From contig JAQWUD010000018.1 of assembly GCA_029242325.1 (NCBI GenBank), positions 1 to 35,302 on the forward strand: a stretch of 35,302 bases of DNA. Reading direction: 5' to 3'. The first letter of the stretch is position 1. Each line of letters starts with the position of its first letter. Of the stretch, positions 2,171 through 34,513 are shown piece after piece. A program made the position numbers and the translations under genes. Source of the stretch: Luminiphilus sp. (GTDB lineage: Bacteria > Pseudomonadota > Gammaproteobacteria > Pseudomonadales > Halieaceae). The notes beneath the pieces were generated by a model. That model searched no databases. It was not told the origin of the DNA and saw nothing but the letters and a program-made list of their open reading frames with translations.

Positions 2171-3414
2171 AAAGAGTCCGAGACCTATTGGCTTCTAGCG
2201 GCGCCGCTGGAGTACTGCTTAGTACTCACGATAATGTCTTCTACGCCTCTGGCTTCAGCTCGGTGATGGATGGATGGCATCTGATCGAACCCATTGCCGC
2301 TGTTTTTATCCCCACAGATGCCCAATTACCCATCGTGCTGATCCTCCCAGAGGCCAGCATCATCTCGCTCATTGTCTCCGAACGGGGCGGCCACCCGGTC
2401 CACTATGAGCGAATCGCCACCTTCGACATGTTGAACTTCTGCCAGACAGCCCGCGCGGAGGACGCACATTTGGCGCTACCGGACGATCTGCTCGCTGAAT
2501 TAGGCGAAGTGATGAAGCGGGTAGAAGGGCAATGCGAACACGACATCATCAAAACAATCGCCGCAACCCTCACCCGCCATGTCGATCCGGGGGATTGTGT
2601 TCTCTTTGATGATCTGCGCGTCGCCCACCACATCAGGGCCATCACCGGCCAAACAACGGGCGATGCGCTGGACATCATGCTGGCCGCACGCGCCATCAAA
2701 ACAGCTGACGAGCTTGCTCTCCTCAGGGAGAGTGGCGCTATCGCCGACGACATCATGGCTCATACCATCTCACTACTGGGGGTGGGCGCTTCTTGGGGCG
2801 AGGTAGAGAAAGGCGTCGCGCAATACATGATCTCGCGCGGCGTCGATCCCCTTCCAGGTAGCCCTATGCTGTTTGGCGGTGCCTATGACCTCGTATTTCG
2901 ACCCGATCTATTTCGCACCGCCGTCAGCCGTCCTTTTACAGGCGGGGAAATCGCGATTCTTGAAACTCAAGGACGATACAAAAATTTTTGGATTGATATT
3001 AATCGGACCGCCCATATTGGGCCGGCATCACAAGCGTACCGCGATCAATACAGCGCCGTTCGTGACGTTTTCGAAACCATCAGTGCCCGGCTCAAACCCG
3101 GTGCCAATACCGCCGATATCTGCCAGTTCCGCGATATTCCTGCAGCGCAACGCTTGGATCCTCCAGAGAAGCTGCTGGTAGTTGCGCATTCTATAGGGCT
3201 CGTGCCGTTGGAAAGCCCCGTGCGGTATCCCGGTACCGGGTTCCATAGTGCAAACAAGGGATTTGTTGCAGAGCCCGGCATGGTCATCAGCATCGACTGC
3301 CTCTATTTTGGCAGTGGGCTGGGGCCCTCTCACATGGAGAACGTATTCATAGTGAACGACAGTGGAGTCGAGCCTCTATATCAGTATCCGCTGGATCTCG
3401 CTGAGGTGGGCTAG
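2152..3414 (+). CDS. M24-family (Xaa-Pro aminopeptidase/creatinase fold) protein
   Basis: The 420-residue product has the two-domain layout of M24 proteins: a creatinase-type N-terminal domain (about 1-165) and a pita-bread catalytic domain (about 170-415). The classical five metal ligands are D, D, H, E, E. Here the aligned positions read E271 (in ILETQGRY), D282 (in WIDINRT), H346 (in AHSIGL), D382 (in SIDC) and E396 (in HMENVF), so the first and fourth ligands are altered although still acidic. The usual second histidine of the HE.P motif is also absent (VPLESP). It may therefore be a peptidase with unusual metal binding or an M24 enzyme on a non-peptide substrate; DddP-type DMSP lyases are one marine example of such drift, but I cannot assign that. 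No convincing ribosome site precedes the ATG. It is divergent from the TonB receptor. Confidence 0.85.
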   Translation: MHSAKIKRVRDLLASSGAAGVLLSTHDNVFYASGFSSVMDGWHLIEPIAAVFIPTDAQLPIVLILPEASIISLIVSERGGHPVHYERIATFDMLNFCQTARAEDAHLALPDDLLAELGEVMKRVEGQCEHDIIKTIAATLTRHVDPGDCVLFDDLRVAHHIRAITGQTTGDALDIMLAARAIKTADELALLRESGAIADDIMAHTISLLGVGASWGEVEKGVAQYMISRGVDPLPGSPMLFGGAYDLVFRPDLFRTAVSRPFTGGEIAILETQGRYKNFWIDINRTAHIGPASQAYRDQYSAVRDVFETISARLKPGANTADICQFRDIPAAQRLDPPEKLLVVAHSIGLVPLESPVRYPGTGFHSANKGFVAEPGMVISIDCLYFGSGLGPSHMENVFIVNDSGVEPLYQYPLDLAEVG

Positions 3415-3528
3415 TACGCCATCAACGTAGCCGGCGAATTCGCCGCAGTATTAAGGGCGGGCCGCTTCCAAACGGGAACATCGCACCGAGACCCTTCTAT
3501 TAATGGAGCCCGCAATAGGCCCCGGCTA

Positions 3529-4452
3529 TCACGCAGCAAGAGACAGATGGTAACCCAGGCGCGGGAACCATACGTGAGCCAATGCGTCAGGCCTGGGAGT
3601 CACAGCAATAACGGCCTGGGCATCGTCGATCGCCAGCAGCATGCCCTCTGATACACCCCGATCGGCAGAGCCGGTCGAGACGGCGACGTGACACCCAACC
3701 CACTCGGACAACGGCTCGGAAGGTGGCGTTTCCGGCAATGTCACCCGCTCACCCGTCTCCAAAGCCTCCCAGGCTGCCCCGATCGTGACATCTTCGCGCT
3801 CACCCGCTCCCTGATCCAACATTCTCTGGTACCAGGCGACGACTGGCGCGAACTCGGCGACCAATGGCATCAGGTCGGGCAGTGCACTGTGGATCATCCA
3901 CAGCATTCCCCAGGCATGAACGTCCCCGATGTCCGGGTGCTCTCCCCCTACGAAAGCCGCGCCGCCAGCCAGATGACGCGACAAGGTGCCGAGGAAAGCC
4001 CGCACCTGACTGTTCCGATCCGGATCCACTACCGTCAAAACATCGAAATTCACTTCGGGGAAAACCTGTTTTCGGTCGGCCAGAACTGCTTCTTCCCACT
4101 GCGCTTTATAGGTCGCCAAAGCCGTATGCAAAATCGGCGTGAAAAATCGCTCACCCCATGCATACCCGGCAGCGTGCGCCAGCTCGCCCCGGGGATTCAG
4201 CACATGCCCTTGCTGAAAATAGCGATCTAACGCCTGTGCAATCATCCAGTTATCGACATAAACATCTGCCCCAACCTGCAATACGGGGGTTCCCCGATAC
4301 CCTCCGGTCAGCGCCTCAACGTCGGGCTTGGGCGCAATCAGTGGCATCTCAACGCTACGCCAAGCAAGCCCTTTAAGGCCCATCATTTTCTGTGCCTTTT
4401 GGGAAAACGGCGAAATATCGTATTGGTGCAGAATCAGTGATTGTTGTGCCAT
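3529..4452 (-). CDS. Glutathione S-transferase-like protein
   Basis: About 307 residues. Residues 5-80 match a thioredoxin-like GST N-terminal domain, with LHQYDISPFSQKAQKMMGLK (the SPF segment sits where the catalytic Ser/Tyr/Cys lies in GSTs) and RGTPVLQVGADVYVDNWMI (the cis-Pro loop and the substrate-side helix). The rest is a helical C-terminal domain (RFFTPILHTALATYKAQW), longer than in a standard 200-230-residue GST. I chose ATG 4452 rather than GTG 4464 because GAGG and AGGG lie upstream of it. Probably cytosolic, using glutathione for conjugation or reduction; the substrate is unknown. It converges on the M24 gene (114-base gap, containing a perfect 14-bp palindrome at 3432-3445) and is divergent from the LuxR gene. 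Confidence 0.8.
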   Translation of the reverse strand: MAQQSLILHQYDISPFSQKAQKMMGLKGLAWRSVEMPLIAPKPDVEALTGGYRGTPVLQVGADVYVDNWMIAQALDRYFQQGHVLNPRGELAHAAGYAWGERFFTPILHTALATYKAQWEEAVLADRKQVFPEVNFDVLTVVDPDRNSQVRAFLGTLSRHLAGGAAFVGGEHPDIGDVHAWGMLWMIHSALPDLMPLVAEFAPVVAWYQRMLDQGAGEREDVTIGAAWEALETGERVTLPETPPSEPLSEWVGCHVAVSTGSADRGVSEGMLLAIDDAQAVIAVTPRPDALAHVWFPRLGYHLSLAA

Positions 4453-4595
4453 AGCCCTACACACCTCGAGTTTATTTTGACACCGTGAACCGGAATACTC
4501 TGAGCGTCAAGGCCACACGCCACTGTCGGCAATGCGTCAATCCCAGGCCAGTAAATCCGTTGAGTGGTGCTAGCTAATCCAGCTAAGCTCTCGCT

Positions 4596-5441
4596 ATGAG
4601 CACCCTAGCCGCCTTTTCCGCCGTGGTCGCCGACGCCACCTCTCAGCTAGGCGAGCCCTCGTTTGCCAAAGTGCTGGGCTTGGGCATCAGCGAGCTCGTG
4701 GGTGCCGACGATGTATCGGTGATAAGGCATCGTGATACGGGGGCGCCAGTCATTGAATACTCCCTACCGAGCAAGGGGCGTGGTGAGACAACGCTGGATC
4801 GATATGTCAAAGGACCTTTTCTGCTCGATCCGTTTTACCGGGCGTCAGAAGTCGAGGGGCGATTCGGCGTCTTCGGACTCAGCAGCCTGGCCCCAAAGGG
4901 CTTTAAGGACAGCGAGTACTATCGCACCTGGTATCACGCTTGCGGCTTTCAGGATGAATGTGGGTTGCTGATCAAGCTGGGTCACGGTTCTGTCAACATC
5001 GCGCTGGGCATCACCGACAACAGCCGAAAATTTGCGAAGGCGCAGGTTCGAGCATTGCACGATATCTTCCCGGCTGCAGAAGCACTGATGCAACAACATT
5101 GGGGCATGCTCAATCCCCAAGTGACCGATCCCTCCAATTTGCGGCATCGGTTGCAGAGCGCCCAGAGCGCATTCGGATCATCGGTGCTCACACGGCGGGA
5201 AAGAGAGGTGATCGAGCTGGTCCTGCTGGGCCACAGTACCCGACTGATCGCAGAGAAGCTCAGGATCTCGGGCGAAACCGTCAAACTTCATCGCAAGCAC
5301 GCTTACGCCAAACTCGATATTTCCTCGCAGGCGGAGCTGTTCTACCTGTTTGTTGATGCGCTCGCCAATCACGTCGGTGATGAGGATCAAGATCCGTTAT
5401 TGGCGTATCACGGGCAACCGAACCGGGGCCAGAGTGTTTGA
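4596..5441 (+). CDS. LuxR-type (GerE HTH) transcriptional regulator
   Basis: 281 residues. The C-terminal 60-65 residues carry a typical GerE/LuxR helix-turn-helix: LTRREREVIELVLLGHST at about 198-215, then IAEKLRISGETVKLHRKHA with the usual ETVK recognition-helix residues. The N-terminal ~180 residues resemble neither a receiver domain nor a clear autoinducer-binding domain; they contain a possible sensor segment (YRTWYHACGFQDECGLL). I therefore call it an orphan LuxR-family regulator of unknown signal. No good ribosome site is seen before the ATG. Its targets are not evident; the divergent GST gene and the nearby minus-strand operon are candidates. Confidence 0.88.
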   Translation: MSTLAAFSAVVADATSQLGEPSFAKVLGLGISELVGADDVSVIRHRDTGAPVIEYSLPSKGRGETTLDRYVKGPFLLDPFYRASEVEGRFGVFGLSSLAPKGFKDSEYYRTWYHACGFQDECGLLIKLGHGSVNIALGITDNSRKFAKAQVRALHDIFPAAEALMQQHWGMLNPQVTDPSNLRHRLQSAQSAFGSSVLTRREREVIELVLLGHSTRLIAEKLRISGETVKLHRKHAYAKLDISSQAELFYLFVDALANHVGDEDQDPLLAYHGQPNRGQSV

Positions 5442-5461
5442 ATGGCGCCTTCTCCCCTCCA

Positions 5462-5656
5462 TCAAAGACGCTGCGAGGGGGTTTCAATCGCGGTGATCTG
5501 CAGGGGCGCCGCTAACGCATGCTGGCACAACATCCTGAGTAGCGCCCCCTGAACCTTGGCGTCAGAGCGGGGATGAGCTGGCATTGATTTAACCCGCAGA
5601 CCATAACGCATACCATTGCCGGCATTTTTTACCCGCAACGAACCTTTAAGAATCAC
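5462..5656 (-). CDS. Possible small basic protein coupled to the upstream gene
   Basis: A 64-residue frame begins with GTG at 5656, inside the last codons of the chalcone-isomerase-like gene (overlap 11 bases), and runs to 5462. The product is basic, has no signal peptide or membrane segment, and resembles nothing I recognise. The overlapping start is the main argument for it, since the two upstream genes of the run are also overlap-coupled. Against it are the unusual composition and the lack of a known family. Confidence 0.2.
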   Translation of the reverse strand: MILKGSLRVKNAGNGMRYGLRVKSMPAHPRSDAKVQGALLRMLCQHALAAPLQITAIETPSQRL

Positions 5657-23607: not shown

Positions 23608-24345
23608 TTAGGGCAAAGTCTCTATTGCCGGCACGCAGGCTCTGAGGCCTCTCGCCTCACATTGCGAGAGCACGAACTGAGCGTCGTCAATTTCGCGCTC
23701 ATCTAGCCGCATTTGCGCCGCGTCTCGAATCTCCTCTCCTTGCGCCTGTCCCTGAGACATCGCGAGAGATGCCCAGACCCAAGCCTGAGCCGGCTTAGCC
23801 TTAGTGTCTGTTCCATCCAATAGGATAAAAGAGAGCATGTACTGGCTGTTCGGGTAACCCTCAGCGGCGGTTTCTCTAAAGCCCTCGAGCGCAAGGCGGC
23901 GATTCCGGATCTGGCCTTCACCTTCGAAATAACTCAGTGCAATCATGTATCGGCTCTCGACCATGCCCTGCGCAGCGGCTTTGCGAAAATGCATCAACCC
24001 TTGTGACCAGCTTTTTGCTACGCCGCGCCCGCCGACATACATCATGCCAAGGTTATGTTCGGCTTCGCTGGAGCCACTCTCCGCTGCACGACGATACCAA
24101 TCCATCGCCAGGTCATACTGTTGCGCAACACCCAACCCCTCTTCGTAGAGGTAGCCAATGTTGTTCTGCGCTTCAGCATCACCGGCCTCAGCCAGGTCAT
24201 ACCAGGCACGCATCGCCGTGGCATAGTGTTGACGCCCCATTGCAGCGATGCCGGCGCGAAGCTGGTCTTCGCGCACGTCCCCCGCCGCAAACCCGGAGTG
24301 GATCAGCAGCAGGACAAGGAATAGGCAGTGTTTAATTACGCTCAC
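23608..24345 (-). CDS. Exported Sel1-repeat protein, possible MotX-like stator partner
   Basis: 245 residues from GTG 24345 (AAGGG just upstream), overlapping the ClC gene by 14 bases. Residues 1-21 form a signal peptide (LFLVLLLIHSGFAAG). At least four Sel1-type 36-residue repeats follow: AEAGDAEAQNNIGYLYEEGL, AESGSSEAEHNLGMMYVGGR, AAQGMVESRYMIALSYFEGE and AAEGYPNSQYMLSFILLDGT. Two late cysteines (SQCEARGLRAC) could pair. MotX, which attaches PomAB stators to the T ring in Vibrio, is also an exported Sel1-type protein. The position at the end of a PomA/PomB gene chain makes a MotX-like role attractive, but Sel1 repeats are widespread and I see no MotX-specific signature. Confidence 0.8.
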   Translation of the reverse strand: MSVIKHCLFLVLLLIHSGFAAGDVREDQLRAGIAAMGRQHYATAMRAWYDLAEAGDAEAQNNIGYLYEEGLGVAQQYDLAMDWYRRAAESGSSEAEHNLGMMYVGGRGVAKSWSQGLMHFRKAAAQGMVESRYMIALSYFEGEGQIRNRRLALEGFRETAAEGYPNSQYMLSFILLDGTDTKAKPAQAWVWASLAMSQGQAQGEEIRDAAQMRLDEREIDDAQFVLSQCEARGLRACVPAIETLP

Positions 24346-26026
24346 GGCCCTTCACTTGCTCTTGCCGATCGAGCGTGCCACCCAGAATCGCGCCTTCACT
24401 GATGCATCCCACGTAAATACCTGCGGCGTCCATCACGGGAATCGCCTCTCCCACGAAGTTGCGCGCCACACCCAGCGCTTGCTGTAAATCGTCTTCGAGG
24501 TGCAGCACGTGCTGGTCTGCACCGATCAATGACTCTGCGGTGCCCTGCGGTTGAGCGAGCGCCTCGAGGATGTTTACCGTGCCCAGTAGCTGGCCGTCTC
24601 CACCGACCACATAGGCCTCAGTACGATTCGCCTGCCGGAGCCGGGCAACAATTTCCTCACCCACCAGCGCACGATCCACCGGCGAGCCCTCTTCCATCTC
24701 CAATTCTGAGACCTTGATGTCTCGGAGCGACAGAAATTCACGCCCCTGACGTAAATCAAACCCCCGCATAATCAGTTGCCGGTCAAAAAAGGAATAGCAG
24801 AACAGGCGGGTTGAGATGAAGGAAGACATCGATACAGCCAGGATGGCGGCGACGGCAAACTCATAGCTTCGCGTAAACTCAAAAACGATCAGCACAACGC
24901 CAATCGGTGCGCCGATAACGGATCCTGCCACAGCTGCCATTCCCACGACGGTCAGCATGGTGATAGCGCCCGGATCATAACCCAGACCCACCGCAATAAA
25001 ACCAGCGAGATATCCGAGAGAGGCGCCCAAAAAAAGTGCCGGCGAGAAGACCCCTCCGACGAGCCCCAAGCCTATACATACCACCGTCGCAGCCAGCTTT
25101 GCCACCAGCATGAGGGCCGCCTCACCGACCTGTTTTTCTCCCGCCAGCAGATCGTTAACAGATTGGGTCCCCAAACCAACGGCTTCTGGCACCAACATGC
25201 CAATTAGTGCCATCAGCGTCGCGGCGAGCAGCACCATCGCGAGATCATTGTTACGGGCTTTCGCCCAGGCGGCAGTCCTGAGCAGTGAGCGCATAAAAAC
25301 GATCGCCAACACGGCCGCCGACGCACCGAGGCCTAGAATCACGGGCAAAAGACCCCAGTCAGTGGGGGTTGCCGTCACAGCATACGGCGACACCCGGTCA
25401 AAAAAGAGCGGTGTCACCGCTGCTGCAACAATGGCCGAGACAGTAATCGGTGCTACCGCTCTCACCGCAAAATGCCGTAACACCGCCTCGGAAACCAGCA
25501 CAACCGCGGCTATCGGTGCTCCGAAGCCTGCTGAAATGGCTGCAGCCACACCACAGGCGACGTAGACGTCTGGCGCCAGTCGCGTGGGGAAAAGCGCTCT
25601 CACCTGAGCCCCCACCGAAGCACCAAAGTGAAGCACGGGACCATACTGACCCACCGATGCCCCCGCACTCGCAGAAATGAAGGCCGCCGTGGTCGAAATA
25701 AAGCCTTCTCGTGCCGGAAATCCCGCATCAGGACGATGGGCGGCCAAAATGGCATCCGCAGGACCGTGCCAGCGATCCATGCTGAAGGCCTGCTTAAGGC
25801 CATAGATGGCGAATGCACCCACGAGCAAAGCCGCCCAGCGGATCAAGCCAGAGCTCAGCGCGCTTTGACCCGCCATTTGATCCCTGATGAGAGAATCGAC
25901 TGCACCCACTCCCAACACAAAAAGATTGGCCGCCAGGCCGCCCAACACGCCGATCACCAGACCGACAAAAAGTACCCTCAACAGCTCGAGGCCCAGCTCT
26001 CTGGGCGATGTATTCAGGAGTAACAT
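24332..26026 (-). CDS. ClC-family chloride channel/transporter with CBS domains
   Basis: 564 residues: about 430 residues of ClC membrane domain, then two CBS motifs (about 450-560; GTVNILEALAQ, VMDAAGIYVGCI). Landmarks are DAGFPAREGF (100-109), GQYGPVLHFGASVG (126-139), APIAAVVLVSEAV (170-182), GLVGGVFSPALFLGASLG (321-338) and the last-helix Y388. In E. coli ClC the aligned positions are GSGIP, GREGP and a Glu pair. Here the anion-binding Ser becomes A101, the gating Glu becomes Y128, and the proton Glu (second of the pair) becomes A181, by my hand alignment. Loss of both glutamates suggests uncoupled channel activity. It overlaps the small lipoprotein gene by 13 bases and the Sel1 gene by 14 bases. 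Confidence 0.9.
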   Translation of the reverse strand: MLLLNTSPRELGLELLRVLFVGLVIGVLGGLAANLFVLGVGAVDSLIRDQMAGQSALSSGLIRWAALLVGAFAIYGLKQAFSMDRWHGPADAILAAHRPDAGFPAREGFISTTAAFISASAGASVGQYGPVLHFGASVGAQVRALFPTRLAPDVYVACGVAAAISAGFGAPIAAVVLVSEAVLRHFAVRAVAPITVSAIVAAAVTPLFFDRVSPYAVTATPTDWGLLPVILGLGASAAVLAIVFMRSLLRTAAWAKARNNDLAMVLLAATLMALIGMLVPEAVGLGTQSVNDLLAGEKQVGEAALMLVAKLAATVVCIGLGLVGGVFSPALFLGASLGYLAGFIAVGLGYDPGAITMLTVVGMAAVAGSVIGAPIGVVLIVFEFTRSYEFAVAAILAVSMSSFISTRLFCYSFFDRQLIMRGFDLRQGREFLSLRDIKVSELEMEEGSPVDRALVGEEIVARLRQANRTEAYVVGGDGQLLGTVNILEALAQPQGTAESLIGADQHVLHLEDDLQQALGVARNFVGEAIPVMDAAGIYVGCISEGAILGGTLDRQEQVKGRERN

Positions 26027-26219: not shown

Positions 26220-28001
26220 TTACGCCTCTTTACTGATTGTTGAGCTCAAGTTGGCCTCATCCAGGACCCTCCCCAGCCGAATCATGACGCTTGCCATGGT
26301 CTCTTCTACCGCAGACGCATAAGCGCGCCTCTGCGCTACGGCCGTATCGACGTCGCCAAGCAACGTTTCTGCGTCCTGTCGCAATGCATTGAGTCGTGTT
26401 TCGGTCTCCTCGGCATCTTTTCCCGCGCTCAGCAAAGCATCCTCCAGATTGCGGGTTAATTCGGCCTTTTTCTTCTGTAAAGGCTCCAGACGACCGGCAT
26501 ACTGGCGGTCAGCCGACCGCTCGGCATCCGCCATTCTCTGATCGAGTTCTTCTATCCTGGCCCGCTGTTGACGAATGGCCTCGCGCTGGGACTTCATCCA
26601 TTCAATGTACTGATCGATCGAATCCTCGTAATCGAGGTCTTCTTCAGGTTCGTCCTCGGAAAAATCCGTCCCGGTAAGACTCTTCAACACCGTGGCTGGC
26701 GGTTCGAGCGTTTCCGCACCGAGCTGTTTAATTAACTCACTGGCTTGATCTGCTTCAAGCTGAATCTCGTCAATCTGGCCGCGAATTTTCTCGCCTTTTT
26801 CCACGGCAATCGCACTTTGCTCTTGAGAAATCGTGCCTAACTGAGTGGCAAGCGATACCAGCCACTGATTCTCGGTACCCGCAAGATCATCATCAGTGGT
26901 CTGTCCGTTTAAGTTAACGTCGATGAAACGCATGCAGCGGCGCGATTCGGACAACCTTTTATCGCCCTGCTCCAGTTCCTGGCAAACCTCTTTGTAATAA
27001 GCGAGCGTTTCCAGTTCATTGTTAAATGATTTCTCGAGGGTATCGAGACAGCTGGAGGTCACGCCTTTTAGCGCCTCAATGAGTGAAGAGAGATTGTCCG
27101 GGGCACCGGCGTAATGCTCGGTAAAGTTATCGAGTTGCTCTCCTTGCACACTTGCACGCGCTTGATCCACCGCGGCGATCAACTCATCTGCATGCTCGAC
27201 TGACCCAATCTGTCGCTCAGGTTCATCAGCCGAGGCAGTCACAGGCGCCTCGGGGGCAGAGTCGGCACCCTCTGGATCAGTCAACCCGCCTGAATCACTG
27301 GCAGATCCGGGTTCATCCATGCGGGGTGCATCGACCGGACGCGTCTCAACGGGTTCAGCGCTGACCCCTCCGCTGGCTTGAACACTCTCAGAGGCCGCGT
27401 CATCAGGCAGGCTCTCCTTCTGGTCAAGACCCTCGCCTTGCACAGCGGTTTCGTTCAATACGACGCTACCAACACCCGCCTGAGGCGGTTCTGGTGTGGG
27501 TTCAAACCCCTGGGACTGTGGTGCCTCCAAAGCCACCGATTCTGGCGCCTCAGGTGAGATCAAGTCTGCCGACAGCTCGGCGGCAATGAACTGCAATGCT
27601 CTACTATGTTGCGCAAAATCGGCGTCGAGCTGCACCGCAGACAAGCAGCGTTCCAGCACTTCATACCGTTCGCCAATGCTGTCGGCATCTCCTGACAACA
27701 AAATGGCGTGGAGCACTTCATGCCTGAAAGAGACAAAACCCTCTGAGAGGGATGCCATGTCTTCCGGTATCTGGCATAGCGCAGCGCCCACTGCGCGAAG
27801 GTCAGCATTGTTTTCCGCGTTGATCAATGCGAACTGGTCTGTGACCGCCTTGATCACATCGGTCATGGTTGCCCCCCTTGCGGCCTCCGCCTCTGATGCC
27901 GCCCAGACGGCATTGTCTTCCTCCCCCTCGGGCGGTACCTGATCCACTGTCTCTTCTTTACGCTCGCCGTCAGATTTACCAAACAGACCGAAGAGTTTCA
28001 T
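26220..28001 (-). CDS. Large acidic coiled-coil cytoplasmic protein
   Basis: 593 residues, strongly acidic, with no signal peptide or membrane span. It starts with an amphipathic MKLFGLFGKSDGERKEE, which might touch the membrane. Residues ~46-145 are helical (MTDVIKAVTDQFALINAENN). Residues ~148-270 are a Pro/Glu/Ala/Ser-rich, probably disordered linker. Residues ~285-590 are long coiled-coil helices (RIEELDQRMADAERSADRQY, KKKAELTRNLEDALL). Its ATG overlaps the stop of a degenerate lipoprotein fragment (ATGA at 27998-28001). I do not recognise the family. Its position among PomA/PomB genes suggests a cytoplasmic scaffold or regulator for the stator; this is inference only. Confidence 0.75.
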   Translation of the reverse strand: MKLFGLFGKSDGERKEETVDQVPPEGEEDNAVWAASEAEAARGATMTDVIKAVTDQFALINAENNADLRAVGAALCQIPEDMASLSEGFVSFRHEVLHAILLSGDADSIGERYEVLERCLSAVQLDADFAQHSRALQFIAAELSADLISPEAPESVALEAPQSQGFEPTPEPPQAGVGSVVLNETAVQGEGLDQKESLPDDAASESVQASGGVSAEPVETRPVDAPRMDEPGSASDSGGLTDPEGADSAPEAPVTASADEPERQIGSVEHADELIAAVDQARASVQGEQLDNFTEHYAGAPDNLSSLIEALKGVTSSCLDTLEKSFNNELETLAYYKEVCQELEQGDKRLSESRRCMRFIDVNLNGQTTDDDLAGTENQWLVSLATQLGTISQEQSAIAVEKGEKIRGQIDEIQLEADQASELIKQLGAETLEPPATVLKSLTGTDFSEDEPEEDLDYEDSIDQYIEWMKSQREAIRQQRARIEELDQRMADAERSADRQYAGRLEPLQKKKAELTRNLEDALLSAGKDAEETETRLNALRQDAETLLGDVDTAVAQRRAYASAVEETMASVMIRLGRVLDEANLSSTISKEA

Positions 28002-28151: not shown

Positions 28152-29432
28152 CTATGTCGATGGAGAGAGTGATTCGCAGTCGGCCTCGGTCACGTCATAG
28201 ATCTGCGCTTGCGAAGTAGGCAGGCCCTCGTAACAGACGCGCACGAATCGCAATTTGCTGAGCGGGTCGGGGAGATCAGGCGAGCGCCGAGCATAGAGAT
28301 CAAAGCGGATGACCGAATCACTGATGCCTCCCTGCAGGATGAGCAAAAGACCTGTCTGCCCGCTACCCGTGGCATCACCCACCGCGACCGCGTAACCATC
28401 CTGACCGGACAGATCACAGTTATCGATAATGATCTCCTCGGCGGGAATGATCGATCCATCACCCTCGGTCGCAGTGATCAACGCGGTATCATAGGGTGTC
28501 AGCGTCGCGCCCACCCCGCAGCGTCGTACCTCGGTATCGCCCGCTTCTGCCGACACCTCGTTCTGCTCGATGACAAGATAATCCAGACCGTCCAGTAAGC
28601 TGGAGCGATATACGCCCGAGAGGTCTAGGTCTGGCGAGACGTAGGCTTCACCGGCGACGGAGAAGTCCACGTCAAAGCCGGTACCCGTCTCCTCGTAAGA
28701 GTAGGCGAGCGACAACTCGCCTGTTTCCTTGTACGTCACCACCAGATCGGGAATGGTGTAAACCTGCAGCGCGTCATCAACCAGCGTTTTGCACTGACCT
28801 GTGCCTGAGGCCTCATCGCCACTCACTGCCACATCAGCAACGCAGAGAAGATTGATAAACGCGGTGGTATCGGTTTCCTGCGACTGCCAAAAGAGGGTGC
28901 CAGTGCGCGAGAGCACAAAGCCGGTCGCATCGTCGATTTCAGGAATGCTACGGCCCATGGTCAGCGCGAATTCACTCTCCCCACCGCCCCCATAGCGCCC
29001 GCCAAAGTTCGCATCGATGTACAACTGGACCTCGTCTTCTGCAATCACATTGCCCGACGTTGCGGTGACTTTTACATCGTAAATACCGGGTAACAGTGCA
29101 TCCCCCGTCACGGTGGCTGCTGCCGAATCCAGTTCTAACTCAATAGGGCCTTCGTAGGTGATCGTGGCGCTACCTGCAGCACTTCCCCCAAGGGCATAGT
29201 TCAGCGAGACGCCCTCATCGGCGCGGTACTTTGTCTCGCCCGACAGCGCGATCGTTAATTGCTCGGTGTCAGTGACGGGGTCTGAACCCACCCCACCCTC
29301 ATCGGAGGCGGCGCCCTCGCCAGAAGAACCCACCCCGCAAGCACCTGTTAACAAAAAAGCTGACAGCAACCCTCCGACTAGGGCCGCCCTGAGTCCCAAA
29401 ACGCCCCTCAGCGTGGCCAACGGATTGCTCAC
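28152..29432 (-). CDS. Lipoprotein of unknown function, beta-rich
   Basis: 426 residues from GTG 29432, which overlaps the TGA of the previous gene (GTGA); a longer frame from 29606 has no signal peptide at its start. The signal peptide (LVGGLLSAFLLTGAC) ends in a lipobox with Cys ~33, followed by a Gly/Ser/Glu-rich linker. The mature protein appears beta-rich: ADEGVSLNYALGGSAAGSAT and GIYDVKVTATSGNV resemble an Ig-like fold, and a second half holds YGGGGESEFALTMGRSIPEI and four to five cysteines. No family recognised. As part of the PomA/PomB run it may be an envelope partner of the stator. A fragment of a paralogue lies directly downstream. Confidence 0.72.
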   Translation of the reverse strand: MSNPLATLRGVLGLRAALVGGLLSAFLLTGACGVGSSGEGAASDEGGVGSDPVTDTEQLTIALSGETKYRADEGVSLNYALGGSAAGSATITYEGPIELELDSAAATVTGDALLPGIYDVKVTATSGNVIAEDEVQLYIDANFGGRYGGGGESEFALTMGRSIPEIDDATGFVLSRTGTLFWQSQETDTTAFINLLCVADVAVSGDEASGTGQCKTLVDDALQVYTIPDLVVTYKETGELSLAYSYEETGTGFDVDFSVAGEAYVSPDLDLSGVYRSSLLDGLDYLVIEQNEVSAEAGDTEVRRCGVGATLTPYDTALITATEGDGSIIPAEEIIIDNCDLSGQDGYAVAVGDATGSGQTGLLLILQGGISDSVIRFDLYARRSPDLPDPLSKLRFVRVCYEGLPTSQAQIYDVTEADCESLSPST

Positions 29433-29773
29433 TCGGTCAACTCGAGGCAATTCGCACTCTCCAGCATTTCCATTTCCTTTTCGCGACGGTACTTGGACGA
29501 GTTCATGTACCAAATCACCAAATAGCCGTAGGTCTTGTATTCCTGACACAGCATGTCGCTCATCGGACCATAGTCGAGCGTCGCCTGTATATCGGGAGAA
29601 GGCCATACCAACAGGGCTTGCTCAGAAAAATAGGCATCGTCGATTGTGGAAATGGATTTGAGGTGCTCCAGAAAACCTTTCTGGGATTTGGTGACCGCCT
29701 GCAACTGCATTGCGGGCAGCAGCAGCGCGACTACCGCGCCGATACACCACAGTTTCTGTATCACTCTCTTCAT
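29429..29773 (-). CDS. Small exported protein of unknown function in the stator locus
   Basis: 114 residues. The ATG at 29773 overlaps the stop of the second PomB-like gene by one base (TGATG), and its own TGA overlaps the GTG of the next lipoprotein gene. The N-terminus is a signal peptide (IGAVVALLLPAMQLQAV). The mature ~88 residues are helical and charged (GFLEHLKSISTIDDAYFSEQ, REKEMEMLESANCLE) with two cysteines (MLCQEY, ANCLE). I do not recognise it. The two stop/start overlaps make it a certain member of the same transcript. Confidence 0.72.
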   Translation of the reverse strand: MKRVIQKLWCIGAVVALLLPAMQLQAVTKSQKGFLEHLKSISTIDDAYFSEQALLVWPSPDIQATLDYGPMSDMLCQEYKTYGYLVIWYMNSSKYRREKEMEMLESANCLELTE

Positions 29774-31029
29774 CAGGCGCCCCCTTTAACCGTAATTTCT
29801 ATTCGTCGATTTTGCGATCGCCCTGCAGCGGTATCATTAGAGGCAATCGGTACGGTATCGGCAAACCCTGTGACGGTAACACTGGCGGGGTCAATAAACC
29901 CCTGACCCACCAGGTAATCAGCAACCGATGCTGATCGCGCAGCGGACAAATCCCAGTTCGATTGAAACCGCTCGCTGAATGCCACCGGGACATTATCGGT
30001 ATGACCCGCTACCGTCACTTTACCCGGGCTCCCGGAGATCGCATCGCCCACACTGGTCAGGATCGAGTAAAAGCTTTGCCGCAGATCGGCACTGCCACTC
30101 ACGAAGGCCCCCTGATCAGCCAGCGAAATTTTGACCTCGTCGTCAATCCGCTCAACGTTTACCAGCCCATTAGCAATCTCTGTGTTAAGACTGGCCTTGA
30201 TCTGCTCATACTCACTTTGCGCCGCCTGCTCGCGTTCAGCGGCTTCGGCACCCTCGCCACTGTCGTAGCGCTGATCCTGATTGGAGGGAGACTGCAACAC
30301 CTGAACCTCTGACACCACTTGCGTCTGTGCGGCGGCTACTTTGGCGTAGATAGCCACGGTGTCCTCGTCGAGGCGCCGCCCCTGCTCGATGCCCTCTTTA
30401 CCCTGCGTTTCACCCTGGCGCTGATCGGCGGTCATCGCCACGCTGATCTTGCCATCGGCTTCTGAGACCTCGACTTTGCCGCTGGCAATCTCCGCTTTCA
30501 GTGCGCTACGTACTTTTTGCAGGTCATCAGAGGGCGGCGTGCTCGAGGGTTTGGTCGTGACTTTCAATTCCGGGTCCGGCGGCTGCTCTTCGTCGGTGGT
30601 TTGCTCGTTGATCGTGCTCAAGGCCGTGGGCTCGACCTTGGCCTGGCTGAACTGGTCCGCAACGATATTGTCAGAGGTGGGGGGCTCGACCACGGGGACC
30701 ACGCGCTGAACGCCCATGCTGTCGTTCATCGAACCGCTTACCTCCTTGAACTTCGGCACATTCATCTGCGCAAAGGAGAGGAGCAATACAAAGAAAGCCA
30801 TTAGTAGCGTTGCCATATCGGCAAAGGTGGCCATCCAAGCCGGCGCGCCGCCGCCCGGACATTTTGGGCACTCTACTGGCGGTAACTCCTCCGGCGGCTC
30901 AGGCGGCGGTCCCGGGGGTAGCTCAGGCTCTGGAGGTGGTGCCGCCTCGGCTTCCGCCGCAGCCTGCTCCTCAGGCAATGCCTCCCCGTCTGGCGCTTCC
31001 TGTTCGGCGATGTTGTCTTCTTCAGCCAC
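29773..31029 (-). CDS. Second PomB/MotB-like stator B subunit
   Basis: 418 residues from GTG 31029 (GGAGAG upstream), 24 bases after the first PomB-like gene. Residues 1-52 are an acidic then Pro/Glu-rich cytoplasmic extension. C54PKC57 precedes the single membrane helix (64-87), which holds the ion-binding D71 (ATFADMATLL). KFKEVSGSM follows, where PomB has its plug region. A long linker (~110-270) leads to a C-terminal OmpA-type peptidoglycan-binding domain (~276-416) with GHTDNVPVAFSERFQSNWDL and GRSQNRRIEI. An extra copy of the OmpA entry hairpin lies in the linker (~173-199). Vibrio PomB is about 315 residues, so this is large. All key residues are intact, suggesting a working subunit. 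Confidence 0.9.
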   Translation of the reverse strand: MAEEDNIAEQEAPDGEALPEEQAAAEAEAAPPPEPELPPGPPPEPPEELPPVECPKCPGGGAPAWMATFADMATLLMAFFVLLLSFAQMNVPKFKEVSGSMNDSMGVQRVVPVVEPPTSDNIVADQFSQAKVEPTALSTINEQTTDEEQPPDPELKVTTKPSSTPPSDDLQKVRSALKAEIASGKVEVSEADGKISVAMTADQRQGETQGKEGIEQGRRLDEDTVAIYAKVAAAQTQVVSEVQVLQSPSNQDQRYDSGEGAEAAEREQAAQSEYEQIKASLNTEIANGLVNVERIDDEVKISLADQGAFVSGSADLRQSFYSILTSVGDAISGSPGKVTVAGHTDNVPVAFSERFQSNWDLSAARSASVADYLVGQGFIDPASVTVTGFADTVPIASNDTAAGRSQNRRIEITVKGGA

Positions 31030-31053
31030 TGATATGACTCTCCAAAACCACGC

Positions 31054-32577
31054 TCAGTTATCGTCTACGATGACTTCGATACGTCGATTGCGCGCGCGAC
31101 CCGCTGACGAATCGTTACTATCCAACGGGCGCGTATCGGCAAACCCGGCGATTTGCACATTCCCTCCCTCGAGACTCGTCGAGTTGAGAAGGAAATCCGC
31201 AATGGATGCCGCGCGGGCTGCGGATAAATCCCAGTTGCTCTTGAATCGCTCGCTGAATGCCACCGGCACATTATCGGTGTGACCCTCCACCATCACGCTA
31301 CCGGAGTACTTGGCGAGGCTATTACCCAGCCGAGCCAGCGTCGGTGTGAAGGTTTGCCGAAGTTCGGCTGACCCCGAGGTAAAACTACCTTGGCTGGCGA
31401 GACGAACAATAATCTTATCGCCGTCTCTTTCCACCTCTGCCAAGCCCGCAGCGATTTCCTCGGAGAGATCCGCGCGCAATTGCTCGTACTTGGAATTACC
31501 AGAGCCCGCGCCACCGCGGCCTCGGCGCTCAGAAGCATTGGCGCCCTGTTGCTTGCCGCGTGCTTTATCGGCCATCTGTATACCGACATCGGAGCTGAAA
31601 TTCGCCGACACCTCGGCCACCTTGGCCACCGCATCTAATACTTCCTGCGGTACCGCACCCCCAGAGCCTTCACCCTCGGCGCCCTGGCCACCGCCTGCGG
31701 CATTTGGCTCAACCAAGGTTACCTTGATTTCGCCATCCTCAATCTTGACGTCGGCCATGCCTTTGTTCATCTCGGCTTCCAACGCTTCCTGAACCTGCAA
31801 AAACTCCGTCTCGAGGTTTTCGTCGTACTCTCCCTCCTCGGTTTTCTTTTCGATAAAATCACCGCGAACAAAGTCGGATCGCTGCGTTTTAACATCCAGG
31901 ACTGAACGCTCGGCTACAGCAGGCGTGAAATTTTCAACCATAATGCTGCGCGCCATCGGGATAGTGACTTTGGGCACGATTTTCTCGATACCAAATGCTT
32001 GCTTCAGTGACCCCGCCACCTGCTTGAACTTTGGCACCTCCGTCTCCGCAAAGCTCAATAGCAGCACGAAAAATGCCATCAACAGGGTCGCCATGTCGGC
32101 AAAGGTCGCCATCCACGCAGGAGCGCCACCGCCTTTGCAAGCCGGACAATTGTTTTTAGGTTCTTCAGGGGGTCGCGGACCCGCTGGAGGCAGATCGGCT
32201 TCGGCGCCCTCCTCGCCCTCTGCTTCTTCACTGCCGTCTTCCGCTGTGTCGGCACCCTCTGCACTCTCAGAAGTTTCAGTTATCAGGTCCTCTGCCACTG
32301 CGGCATCGGCTTCTGGGACCTCTTCTGCCGCAACGGCTTCTGGGGCGTCATTCCCTGAGGCCGCATCGGCCGCCGTAGCCGAACCATCACTGGTTAATCC
32401 AGCGCTTTCCGTATTGTCGTCAGCAAGCCCAGCCGTGGGATCAATGGCCGCGAGCAGATCCAATTCGTCAGTCGCCTGCTGCTTGATGTCATCAGCAAGC
32501 CCAGCCGTGGGATCAATGGCCGCGAGCAGATCCGACTCGTCAGTCCCCTGCTGCTTGATGTCGTCATCTTCAGCCAT
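31054..32577 (-). CDS. pomB: First PomB/MotB-like stator B subunit, long acidic N-terminus
   Basis: 507 residues. The first ~143 are acidic and low-complexity and contain two tandem 24-residue repeats near the start. C144PAC147 lies just before the membrane helix (154-177), which holds the ion-binding D161 (ATFADMATLL). KFKQVAGSLKQAFGIEK is close to the PomB plug region of Vibrio. The periplasmic linker (~200-362) includes a spare copy of the OmpA entry hairpin (263-289), and the OmpA-type domain (~366-505) has GHTDNVPVAFSERFKSNWDL and GRARNRRIEV. PomB pairs with PomA as an A5B2 Na+ channel that turns the flagellar rotor and anchors to peptidoglycan. It starts 35 bases after pomA. A weak GAGA serves as ribosome site. 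Confidence 0.92.
   Translation of the reverse strand: MAEDDDIKQQGTDESDLLAAIDPTAGLADDIKQQATDELDLLAAIDPTAGLADDNTESAGLTSDGSATAADAASGNDAPEAVAAEEVPEADAAVAEDLITETSESAEGADTAEDGSEEAEGEEGAEADLPPAGPRPPEEPKNNCPACKGGGAPAWMATFADMATLLMAFFVLLLSFAETEVPKFKQVAGSLKQAFGIEKIVPKVTIPMARSIMVENFTPAVAERSVLDVKTQRSDFVRGDFIEKKTEEGEYDENLETEFLQVQEALEAEMNKGMADVKIEDGEIKVTLVEPNAAGGGQGAEGEGSGGAVPQEVLDAVAKVAEVSANFSSDVGIQMADKARGKQQGANASERRGRGGAGSGNSKYEQLRADLSEEIAAGLAEVERDGDKIIVRLASQGSFTSGSAELRQTFTPTLARLGNSLAKYSGSVMVEGHTDNVPVAFSERFKSNWDLSAARAASIADFLLNSTSLEGGNVQIAGFADTRPLDSNDSSAGRARNRRIEVIVDDN
32415..32558 (-). repeat. Two tandem 72-bp repeats in the first PomB-like gene
   Basis: Copy one spans 32487-32558 and copy two 32415-32486, nearly identical and in frame, each encoding 24 residues of the type DDIKQQATDELDLLAAIDPT followed by AGLA. 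A partial third unit (DDDIKQQ context) lies at the start codon side. The few differences (for example GTC/ATC and GAC/AAT) indicate a fairly recent slippage-type duplication in the cytoplasmic N-terminus of the protein. Such repeats often vary in number between strains. Confidence 0.9.
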
Positions 32578-33368: not shown

Positions 33369-33973
33369 TCTGGACTCCTCGAAAAACGGGTTCGGTCACA
33401 CAGCTCCCCATTAATATACCAACACCCGCCAATCGCGTCCTAGCGACCTTTTCGGCATTGCTGCACCGGCTGAGCGGTATCGATACCGCGAAACCTTCAT
33501 GGAGGATATCGGCCTGACAAACAAATACTTAACCTCCATTTGCCAAGGCCTTGAGAATGCAGTGGGATGATATCGGCCGTAAACGGCTGTGCTATCGTTG
33601 AAAACGTCCGATGTGTTCTATGCGTGGAGGCTACAGGCTCGTTTAACCGCGGCGTCGACCTGGGAAATCCCAACTATGGTGGCTCCAGTCACATCCAGCA
33701 GTGAGCGGAGGCACAGTTACATGTGTCTTTGATCATATGGCTAGCTGCCGAAATGATGGTGGATTGGGGCAACGCGAGGTCTCAGACACCATATCTCGAT
33801 CATAAGAGCAGCGGCAGGCAACATACTGAGAGCAGGGGTCAAGTTGCAGAAAGGCTTCAGGGCCAACTCTCGATACGATGGGGATAGATAGACGATGAGC
33901 GGTGGATAGACGTAACAGGGGCAGCAAAAGGTTCTAAAAGTGTTGAGTGATTTGCCTAGCAAGGGGGTATCCA
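33369..33973. other. 605-base intergenic region between pomA and a DUF1566-like lipoprotein gene
   Basis: I see no gene here; the open frames are short, lack ribosome sites and have no recognisable product. Besides the sigma-28-like promoter, a second GCCGATAT lies at 33577-33570 on the minus strand but without a matching -35. It touches a small hairpin, GCCGT-AA-ACGGC at 33576-33587. The stretch 33640-33940 shows no motif I can name; it should also contain the promoter of the plus-strand lipoprotein gene. Confidence 0.6.
33506..33532 (-). promoter_or_regulatory. Sigma-28-like promoter of pomA
   Basis: On the minus strand: TTAAGTAT (33532-33525), then GCCGATAT at 33513-33506, with 15 bases between TTAA and GCCGATAT. 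The -10 is identical to that of the fliS promoter in this window and the -35 differs from TAAAGTTT at two positions. The expected start is near 33499, giving a leader of about 130 bases before the pomA ATG. Motility stator genes are classical FliA targets, which supports it. Confidence 0.65.
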
Positions 33974-34513
33974 ATGAAATGGAGCAGGAACCAAGGTCTT
34001 ATGGTCGCATTGGCGCTCGCCGGCTCGGTTTTGTTGGCCGGCTGCAGCGACCAGCGAAACATGCCCGAATGTGGCGATGTATTCGACAGCCGCCTGGAGA
34101 AGTCAGGCTACGAAGTACTAGATGACGGCATTGCACTACACAGGGATACCGGGCTTAAAATTACGCAGTGTGCGGTTGGTCAGCGGATGTCTAATTTCCG
34201 ATGCCGCGGCGAATCCCTCAAGCTCACCTGGGATGAGGCCATGGCCTACGCAACAGAAGTAGCCGAAAAAACAGGAGAGCCCTGGCGCCTGCCTGAAAAA
34301 GGCGAAATGCCTGACTTACTCGAAAGCGAATGCATTAACCCTGCCGCCAATCCCTATATCTTTCCTGACCTGGAGGTCGCGAACTTCTGGACGGGGTCTA
34401 AGGGCTTACACCAGGATCGCTTCCGATGCTCGGTATACACCTATCAGGGTCGCGTTTTTTGTCGGCAGGCGCGCAATATCCCGCAGCCGTTTTTACTCGT
34501 AAAAGAGTACTGA
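33974..34513 (+). CDS. DUF1566-like lipoprotein
   Basis: 179 residues from ATG 33974, which has AAGGGGG seven bases upstream; a frame from 33947 adds nine residues without support. The signal peptide ends in the lipobox LLAGC (Cys ~24). The mature part has the Lcl/DUF1566 pattern: DTGLKITQCAVGQR, LTWDEAMAYATEVAE, WRLPEKGEMPDLLE, then FWTGSKG and a closing strand. DUF1566 domains occur in surface proteins, some collagen- or glycan-binding. Six cysteines suggest disulfides. Convergent with the small-gene group on the minus strand, 56 bases away. Confidence 0.82.
   Translation: MKWSRNQGLMVALALAGSVLLAGCSDQRNMPECGDVFDSRLEKSGYEVLDDGIALHRDTGLKITQCAVGQRMSNFRCRGESLKLTWDEAMAYATEVAEKTGEPWRLPEKGEMPDLLESECINPAANPYIFPDLEVANFWTGSKGLHQDRFRCSVYTYQGRVFCRQARNIPQPFLLVKEY

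Follow-up and report, generated by a model that had tools for sequence, protein, structure and literature searches.

Two tandem pomB paralogues behind one pomA-type gene in Luminiphilus, and the stator unit they may form

The 5:2 flagellar stator is asymmetric by number, yet it normally contains two copies of the same B chain, which makes the single roles of each chain hard to probe. What kind of unit is built, then, when one A gene is followed by two different B genes? We address this question with a locus from Luminiphilus sp. (contig JAQWUD010000018.1 of assembly GCA_029242325.1; the 35,302 nucleotides (nt) analysed are referred to here as the window). On the minus strand of the window, a gene for a PomA-like ring subunit is followed by two genes for PomB-like subunits, PomB1 and PomB2 (hereafter B1 and B2). 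The answer that we lean towards, at a little under an even chance, is that a PomA5-B1-B2 complex with two unlike plugs is the main or preferred unit.

The stator operon and its host

A first-pass annotation of this DNA had described two tandem, intact PomB-like genes of 507 and 418 residues behind a single pomA, and both the coordinates and the lengths were confirmed. The PomA-like stator ring subunit (251 amino acids, aa) is encoded at 33368-32613, B1 (507 aa, start codon ATG) at 32577-31054 and B2 (418 aa, start codon GTG) at 31029-29773, all on the minus strand and in that order, and a gene for a 114-aa protein comes after them. The gap between B1 and B2 is 24 nt, and B2 overlaps the next frame by one base; the short gap and the overlap fit a predicted single transcript. 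A scan of promoters and terminators stood at chance level, with 3 promoters against 3.0 in shuffled sequences and 5 terminators against 5.1.

The A protein matches the MotA_ExbB family (PF01618) above its cut-off, at 94.8 bits. Its best NCBIfam model is PomA, at 318.9 bits and below the cut-off of 341, and its best match among solved structures is Vibrio PomA. We class the locus as a PomAB/MotAB stator: its A protein is a member of the MotA/TolQ/ExbB family that lies nearest to PomA, and its host carries flagellar genes. Residues T156, T183 and T184 align with T158, T185 and T186 of Vibrio PomA, the three threonines that build the sodium site there according to the available part of the source (PMC10374538). 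Judged from these conserved threonines, the operon is a predicted sodium-type stator.

B1 consists of a long cytoplasmic tail, a CPxC motif, a transmembrane (TM) helix with D161, a plug region, a long linker and an OmpA-like domain. Both B proteins match MotB_plug (PF13677; 67.7 bits for B1 and 66.8 for B2, cut-off 24) and OmpA (PF00691; 56.0 and 58.5 bits, cut-off 27.2). In both, the CPxC motif directly precedes the membrane helix, the membrane aspartate is present (D161 in B1, D71 in B2) and the domain that binds peptidoglycan is retained, as the annotation had said; the plug region is retained as well. The best NCBIfam model for both is the MotB subfamily NF006508, for which B1 scores 254.9, below the cut-off of 259, and B2 scores 277.3, above it. 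The best solved-structure match of B1 is Vibrio PomB.

The host genome (2.76 Mb in 51 contigs, 96.5% complete) holds exactly two MotB_plug matches, which are B1 and B2, and five MotA_ExbB matches. Judged by eye from sequence and gene setting, the other four of these five look like a TolQ-like protein, an ExbB pair and one protein in a different setting, and on this reading we find one PomA-type gene for the two B genes. There are two FliG_C matches, one of which (129.5 bits) lies in a flagellar cluster apart from the stator locus. From gene order and sequence, we take this cluster to run from fliE to fliP, the names other than FliG being presumed. The presence of flagellar genes in the genome led us to reject a non-flagellar motor as an explanation of the locus. 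The second FliG_C match is an orphan protein of 144 aa (93.7 bits; host contig C9, locus L088, 7142-7576, minus strand), and within 15 kb around it no flagellar gene was recognised.

Recurrence and ancestry of the B pair

Is the pair peculiar to this contig? When genome contigs were scanned with B2, 20 loci came up, of which nine belong to Halieaceae/Luminiphilus, three to Litoricola/Litorivicinus and eight to unclassified Gammaproteobacteria. The search of related genomes for pomA-pomB-pomB, which the first-pass annotation had put forward, thus yielded 11 loci in which A, B1 and B2 follow each other with both B genes whole (the window, L038, L039, L054-L059, L061 and L073) and three further triads that are cut or split: a contig end truncates L040 and L060, and L070 has its B2 in two frames. 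The tandem B pair is far beyond chance. We rejected an assembly artefact on two grounds: the identity between B1 and B2 is only 45% over 383 aligned residues, and the pair recurs in other assemblies, including a single-contig genome (G041). The B2 of L070, from a metagenome bin, spans two reading frames at 3986-5493 and is either a broken gene or an assembly error.

At nine loci, an A gene is followed by one long B gene (L062-L069 and L071; the A gene of L062 is cut). These single long B proteins share 47-52% of their residues with B1 and B2. The nearest single-B relatives come from Litoricola/Litorivicinus and from unclassified Gammaproteobacteria. Among 120 genomes sampled from the family, 49 have a plug match, and frames of at least 360 aa with such a match are confined to eight. 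In seven of the eight the two genes stand in tandem, with the B2 of G090 divided between two frames; the remaining genome, G062, carries B2 and a B1 that is cut by a contig end. Genomes of the same genus that do not have the triad encode a shorter PomB of roughly 300-360 aa; two of the loci fetched from the genus, L049 and L052, have a more distant B of roughly 250 aa instead. The short PomAB genes of L041, L045 and L050 lie near what we take to be FlhF/FlhG-like genes. The genus holds different stator types, the triad and the short PomAB, and its stator locus has probably undergone a replacement.

Beyond the family, we searched 369 genomes across the class with the B alignment, scoring at most four candidates per genome. 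Ten loci were taken for their long or strongly matching B. Nine of them showed one B, with an A gene adjacent in eight of the nine; at the tenth, L082, the frame picker reported neither A nor B. No second B was found at any of the ten among the matches listed, with a frame picker that can hide overlapped frames. In other lineages, then, a long B appears to do without a second one. At the level of the phylum, 110 genomes (96 with a plug match) held at least four further adjacent, same-strand B pairs, in G863, G872, G938 and G883; the matches considered extend to about E 4e-7, the pairs among them were picked out by eye, and this count is a lower bound. All four pairs have an A gene beside them (loci L084-L087) and so resemble the window in that a single A gene neighbours two B genes in a row. 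The order is A-B-B in L084, L085 and L087, and B-B-A in L086, where the two adjacent B genes precede the A gene (2777-4539, minus strand).

We next asked whether the triads share one duplication. In a tree of 39 rows, the 12 B1 rows and the 12 B2 rows each form one side of a branch (support 100/99 and 100/98), and B1 and B2 together are separated from the single-B and short rows (95/90). This tree uses a chosen subset of the short and single rows; it omits the cut rows L060_B2 and L040_B1, L070_B2 (two frames) and seven short or more distant rows in which the motif pattern had no hit. A second, quick tree of 31 chosen rows, with support from the Shimodaira-Hasegawa-like approximate likelihood ratio test (SH-aLRT), leaves the three long groups as an open fork. 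On these trees, the triad loci go back to one old duplication, which may have shortly preceded or shortly followed the divergence from the Litoricola type.

A divergent gene with an Lcl_C domain lies upstream in eight of the nine listed triads that have an upstream flank (all except L073), and also at four listed single-B loci (L063, L066, L069 and L071). This common upstream neighbour suggests that pomB was duplicated in place. A recent or decaying copy was rejected on the strength of the tree and the intact domains, and the earlier remark that neither B gene looks dead is borne out: each has formed one clade since the old duplication, and the ratio of nonsynonymous to synonymous substitution rates (dN/dS) between L056 and L057, where dS is about 0.23, is 0.114 for B1 and 0.081 for B2, compared with 0.048 for A. 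For the six remaining genome pairs, dS is no lower than about 0.6 and is mostly above 1 or not computable. Both the aspartate and the GHTD motif are retained in both B proteins of all 11 whole triads.

The A-B-B loci of the wider phylum appear to have another origin. In the quick tree, none of the eight rows from L084-L087 falls within the Halieaceae/Litoricola clade. Seven lie in one separate branch, and the first B of L087 lies among the short single rows; both rows of L087 sit on very long branches, which makes their placement unsure. This points to separate duplications. L087 stands out in that its first B (3418-4287, minus strand) has a glutamine at the aspartate position, located by counting from the FF pair in its membrane helix, and its other B has the aspartate. 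After its A-B-B genes come what are presumably FliL- and FliM-like genes. In this one genome, a mixed dimer is the arrangement most easily understood, as the glutamine-bearing B would hardly be workable as a homodimer; outside the triads, this single case is the strongest hint that mixed dimers exist.

A literature search for two or tandem motB or pomB genes turned up, in the texts as far as they were available, Aquifex aeolicus as the only flagellar one-A-two-B case that we recognised; a search for Halieaceae together with stators found nothing. Aquifex belongs to a different phylum, its sequences lie outside our trees, and its duplication and that of Luminiphilus were presumably separate. 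Its sodium-driven stator is encoded by motA, motB1 and motB2 in one operon; MotB1 and MotB2 are 97% identical in their N-terminal and membrane parts and 23% identical in their periplasmic parts, have linkers of 70 and 56 residues, and each function weakly with MotA when their membrane parts are joined to the periplasmic part of the E. coli protein (PMC4525482, available in part). A mixed dimer is not considered in the discussion of that paper. The Luminiphilus operon resembles this one in having one A followed by two tandem B genes with near-identical membrane parts, and differs from it in that the window linkers are equal in length. A second parallel is found in Myxococcus, where one MotA homologue, AglR, is accompanied by AglQ and AglS, both homologous to MotB; the accessible text states hetero- versus homodimer as unknown for them (PMC9389320). 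A hand-over-hand role of AglQ and AglS within one motor has been suggested (PMC9120999, in the part available). Unlike the window genes, that system serves gliding rather than a flagellum, and its anchors are described as TolR-like (PMC9389320). The one-A-two-B arrangement is therefore already described, and the first-pass remark that no well-described case was known gives way to the Aquifex operon and to AglR/AglQ/AglS.

Where B1 and B2 differ and what unit they may form

If the two B proteins have taken on separate roles, the place of their differences should bear on what those roles are. The B1 and B2 of the window have the same 29-residue membrane segment, GGGAPAWMATFADMATLLMAFFVLLLSFA, and 32 of 35 residues are shared from CPxC through the TM helix. 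Identity is 12/27 in the region that follows the TM helix and includes the plug (residues 179-205 of B1, 31963-32043; residues 89-115 of B2, 30685-30765; both minus strand), 10/49 and 23/83 in the linker, 8/37 in the stretch before the OmpA-like domain and 72/132 in that domain. The first-pass annotation had also raised the possibility of linkers that differ in length and hence in reach. This did not hold up for the window, where B1 and B2 alike have 274 residues from the aspartate to GHTD; the size difference of 89 residues resides in the cytoplasmic N-terminal tail, with 151 residues before the membrane segment in B1 and 61 in B2. The B1 tail varies widely in length among relatives, and in the window it contains a 72-nt tandem repeat in two copies (94%; 32415-32558, minus strand). 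The two distances are equal within the genome in 9 of the 11 whole triads (274/274 in eight and 264/264 in L073), the remaining values being 274/275 in L038 and 279/273 in L039. Where the distance could be used in single long B rows, six in all, it is 280-285 residues (285 in L064 and L071), and three short rows measure 186.

We then located the columns that are fixed differently between the paralogues. Across 10 B1 and 9 B2 rows from close triads there are 24 such columns among 365, one of which sets a gap against a residue. None falls in the 35 columns from CPxC through the TM helix, nine fall in the 27 columns of the plug region, nine in the next 50 (which hold the gap) and six in the 133 of the OmpA-like domain; the linker module described below (83 columns) and the loop after it (37) have none. 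The plug region and early linker thus contain 18 of the 24. Two of these sites, T179 and E180 in B1 and M89 and N90 in B2, align with positions 42-43 of Vibrio PomB, inside the linker F39-D43, through which the chains pair with each other there (PMC10374538, in the part available). At the nine plug sites, eight single-B rows show the B2 letter at eight and the B1 letter at two, and B1 is therefore mostly the changed copy.

Between plug and OmpA-like domain, B2 carries an additional module (about residues 166-248; 30286-30534, minus strand) in which helices and strands succeed one another as they do in the first half of the OmpA-like domain. The structure model of B2, built with 23 family rows, has a mean predicted local distance difference test (pLDDT) score of 68.7; within the module, pLDDT is about 80 in the better parts and below 50 in a loop. 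A profile comparison of the module with the first half of the OmpA-like domain gave a probability of 96.2% (E 2.6e-9), compared with at most 2.8% in 20 column-shuffled controls, so the module is a degenerate, partial second copy of that domain. Its counterpart in B1 spans roughly residues 255-338. The module is present in the aligned B1, B2 and single long B rows, and is therefore older than the duplication; it is missing from two short PomB rows, from which the window proteins differ by this added half domain.

How might two such chains be used? The available text on the Vibrio PomA5PomB2 stator describes short linkers that pair after the membrane helices and plugs that act in trans, with the two plugs in unequal environments, since five A surround two B, and proposes an asymmetric release (PMC10374538). 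Vibrio PomB (PDB 8bri, 8brd and 3wpw) is a single kind of chain of 315-321 aa, whereas the window has two paralogues. With the genes, their history, their retention and the location of their differences read from sequence, we infer three further steps: co-assembly, a bias towards the heterodimer and asymmetric gating. After an in-place duplication long ago, both copies of pomB would have become needed, and the single PomA would supply the five-membered ring for B1 and B2 alike. Because the membrane helices are identical, the ring could not distinguish the two, and both chains would meet in one unit. Each of the unequal plug places of the 5:2 unit would then be served by its own chain, B2 retaining the ancestral plug and B1 bearing an altered one, and the closing and release of the channel would be asymmetric. 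B1 and B2 are jointly retained in nearly every triad seen.

Several observations weigh against such a unit. The same identical helices would permit B1-B1 and B2-B2 units, and each Aquifex MotB membrane part, in the chimeras described above, works weakly alone with MotA (PMC4525482). The linkers of L039 are unequal, and equal lengths elsewhere may reflect few insertions or deletions rather than pairing. A long-linker B also occurs where it has no partner copy, at the Litoricola-type loci and, among the matches listed, at the 10 class-wide loci. Finally, when L039, L040 and L073 are added, so that all 12 B1 and 12 B2 rows are compared, one paralogue-fixed site remains. The stricter form of the idea, in which PomA5-PomB1-PomB2 is obligate, each plug has a dedicated chain, opening and anchoring follow a fixed order and the design has arisen more than once through separate duplications of the B gene, strikes us as rather unlikely.

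One rival to the mixed unit is a pair of exchangeable homodimeric stators, PomA5-B1-B1 and PomA5-B2-B2, drawing on one PomA pool and differing in plug release or partner contacts. Exchange between two stator types is described for Bacillus subtilis (PMC7595845, in the part available), and the differences between B1 and B2 lie in regulatory parts rather than in the channel helix, which would suit two such units as would the activity of the Aquifex chimeras. We nevertheless consider this less probable than the mixed unit: adjacent genes behind one A offer no obvious switch between units, identical membrane helices put up no barrier to mixing, and the window linkers do not differ in length. Free mixing would be the default on the same membrane segment and on peptidoglycan-binding domains as similar as these; B1B1, B1B2 and B2B2 would then coexist, and the gene pair would mainly set how strong the plugs are on average or how many B subunits there are. 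The long joint retention and the separately fixed plug residues suggest more than dosage, and we regard mixing of this kind as improbable, more so than exchange between homodimers. We think it very improbable indeed that a single B powers the motor and that its partner has become an assembly or anchoring aid, or is heading for loss. The two-frame B2 of L070 could be read in this way, as could the finding that only B2 retains most plug letters of the single-B relatives; against it stand the aspartate and GHTD motif kept in both B proteins throughout the whole triads and the low dN/dS of both in the one low-dS comparison, and the break in L070 may be an assembly error.

Should the PomA5-B1-B2 unit with unlike plugs exist, each plug, each aspartate and each anchor could be altered singly in a unit whose two B chains can be told apart. 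The recurrence of one-A-two-B loci in apparently separate lineages, together with an unchanged helix and changed plugs here, points to the possibility that gating gains from asymmetry. Such a stator would also be the counterpart, in a flagellum, of AglR and its partners AglQ and AglS (PMC9389320, as far as available).

Genes around the operon

The gene that follows B2 (29429-29773, minus strand) encodes the 114-aa protein, and its first base overlaps the B2 stop codon. With its hydrophobic N-terminus, the protein looks, by eye, as if it were exported. Matches to it occur in six of the seven triad genomes searched (all except G030) and in none of four genomes of the same genus with a short PomAB. 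Its structure model reaches a pLDDT of 84, and a fold search returned no match at E 0.001 or better. It could be a stator accessory.

On the other side of the operon, the Lcl_C-domain gene of the window (33947-34513, plus strand) diverges from pomA, and its relatives occupy the same place in triad and single-B loci. Farther downstream on the minus strand come genes at 28152-29606 and 26220-28001 and a ClC-type channel gene at 24332-26026, and these three are found in the same order in L054, L055, L056, L058, L059 and L061. MotY_N (PF18393) had no match in 13 genomes, and the control genomes were likewise without a match. The product of a Sel1 gene at 23608-24345 (minus strand) has only a weak match to MotX, at 24 bits against 330; relatives of this gene adjoin the stator genes in L066, L071 and L073.

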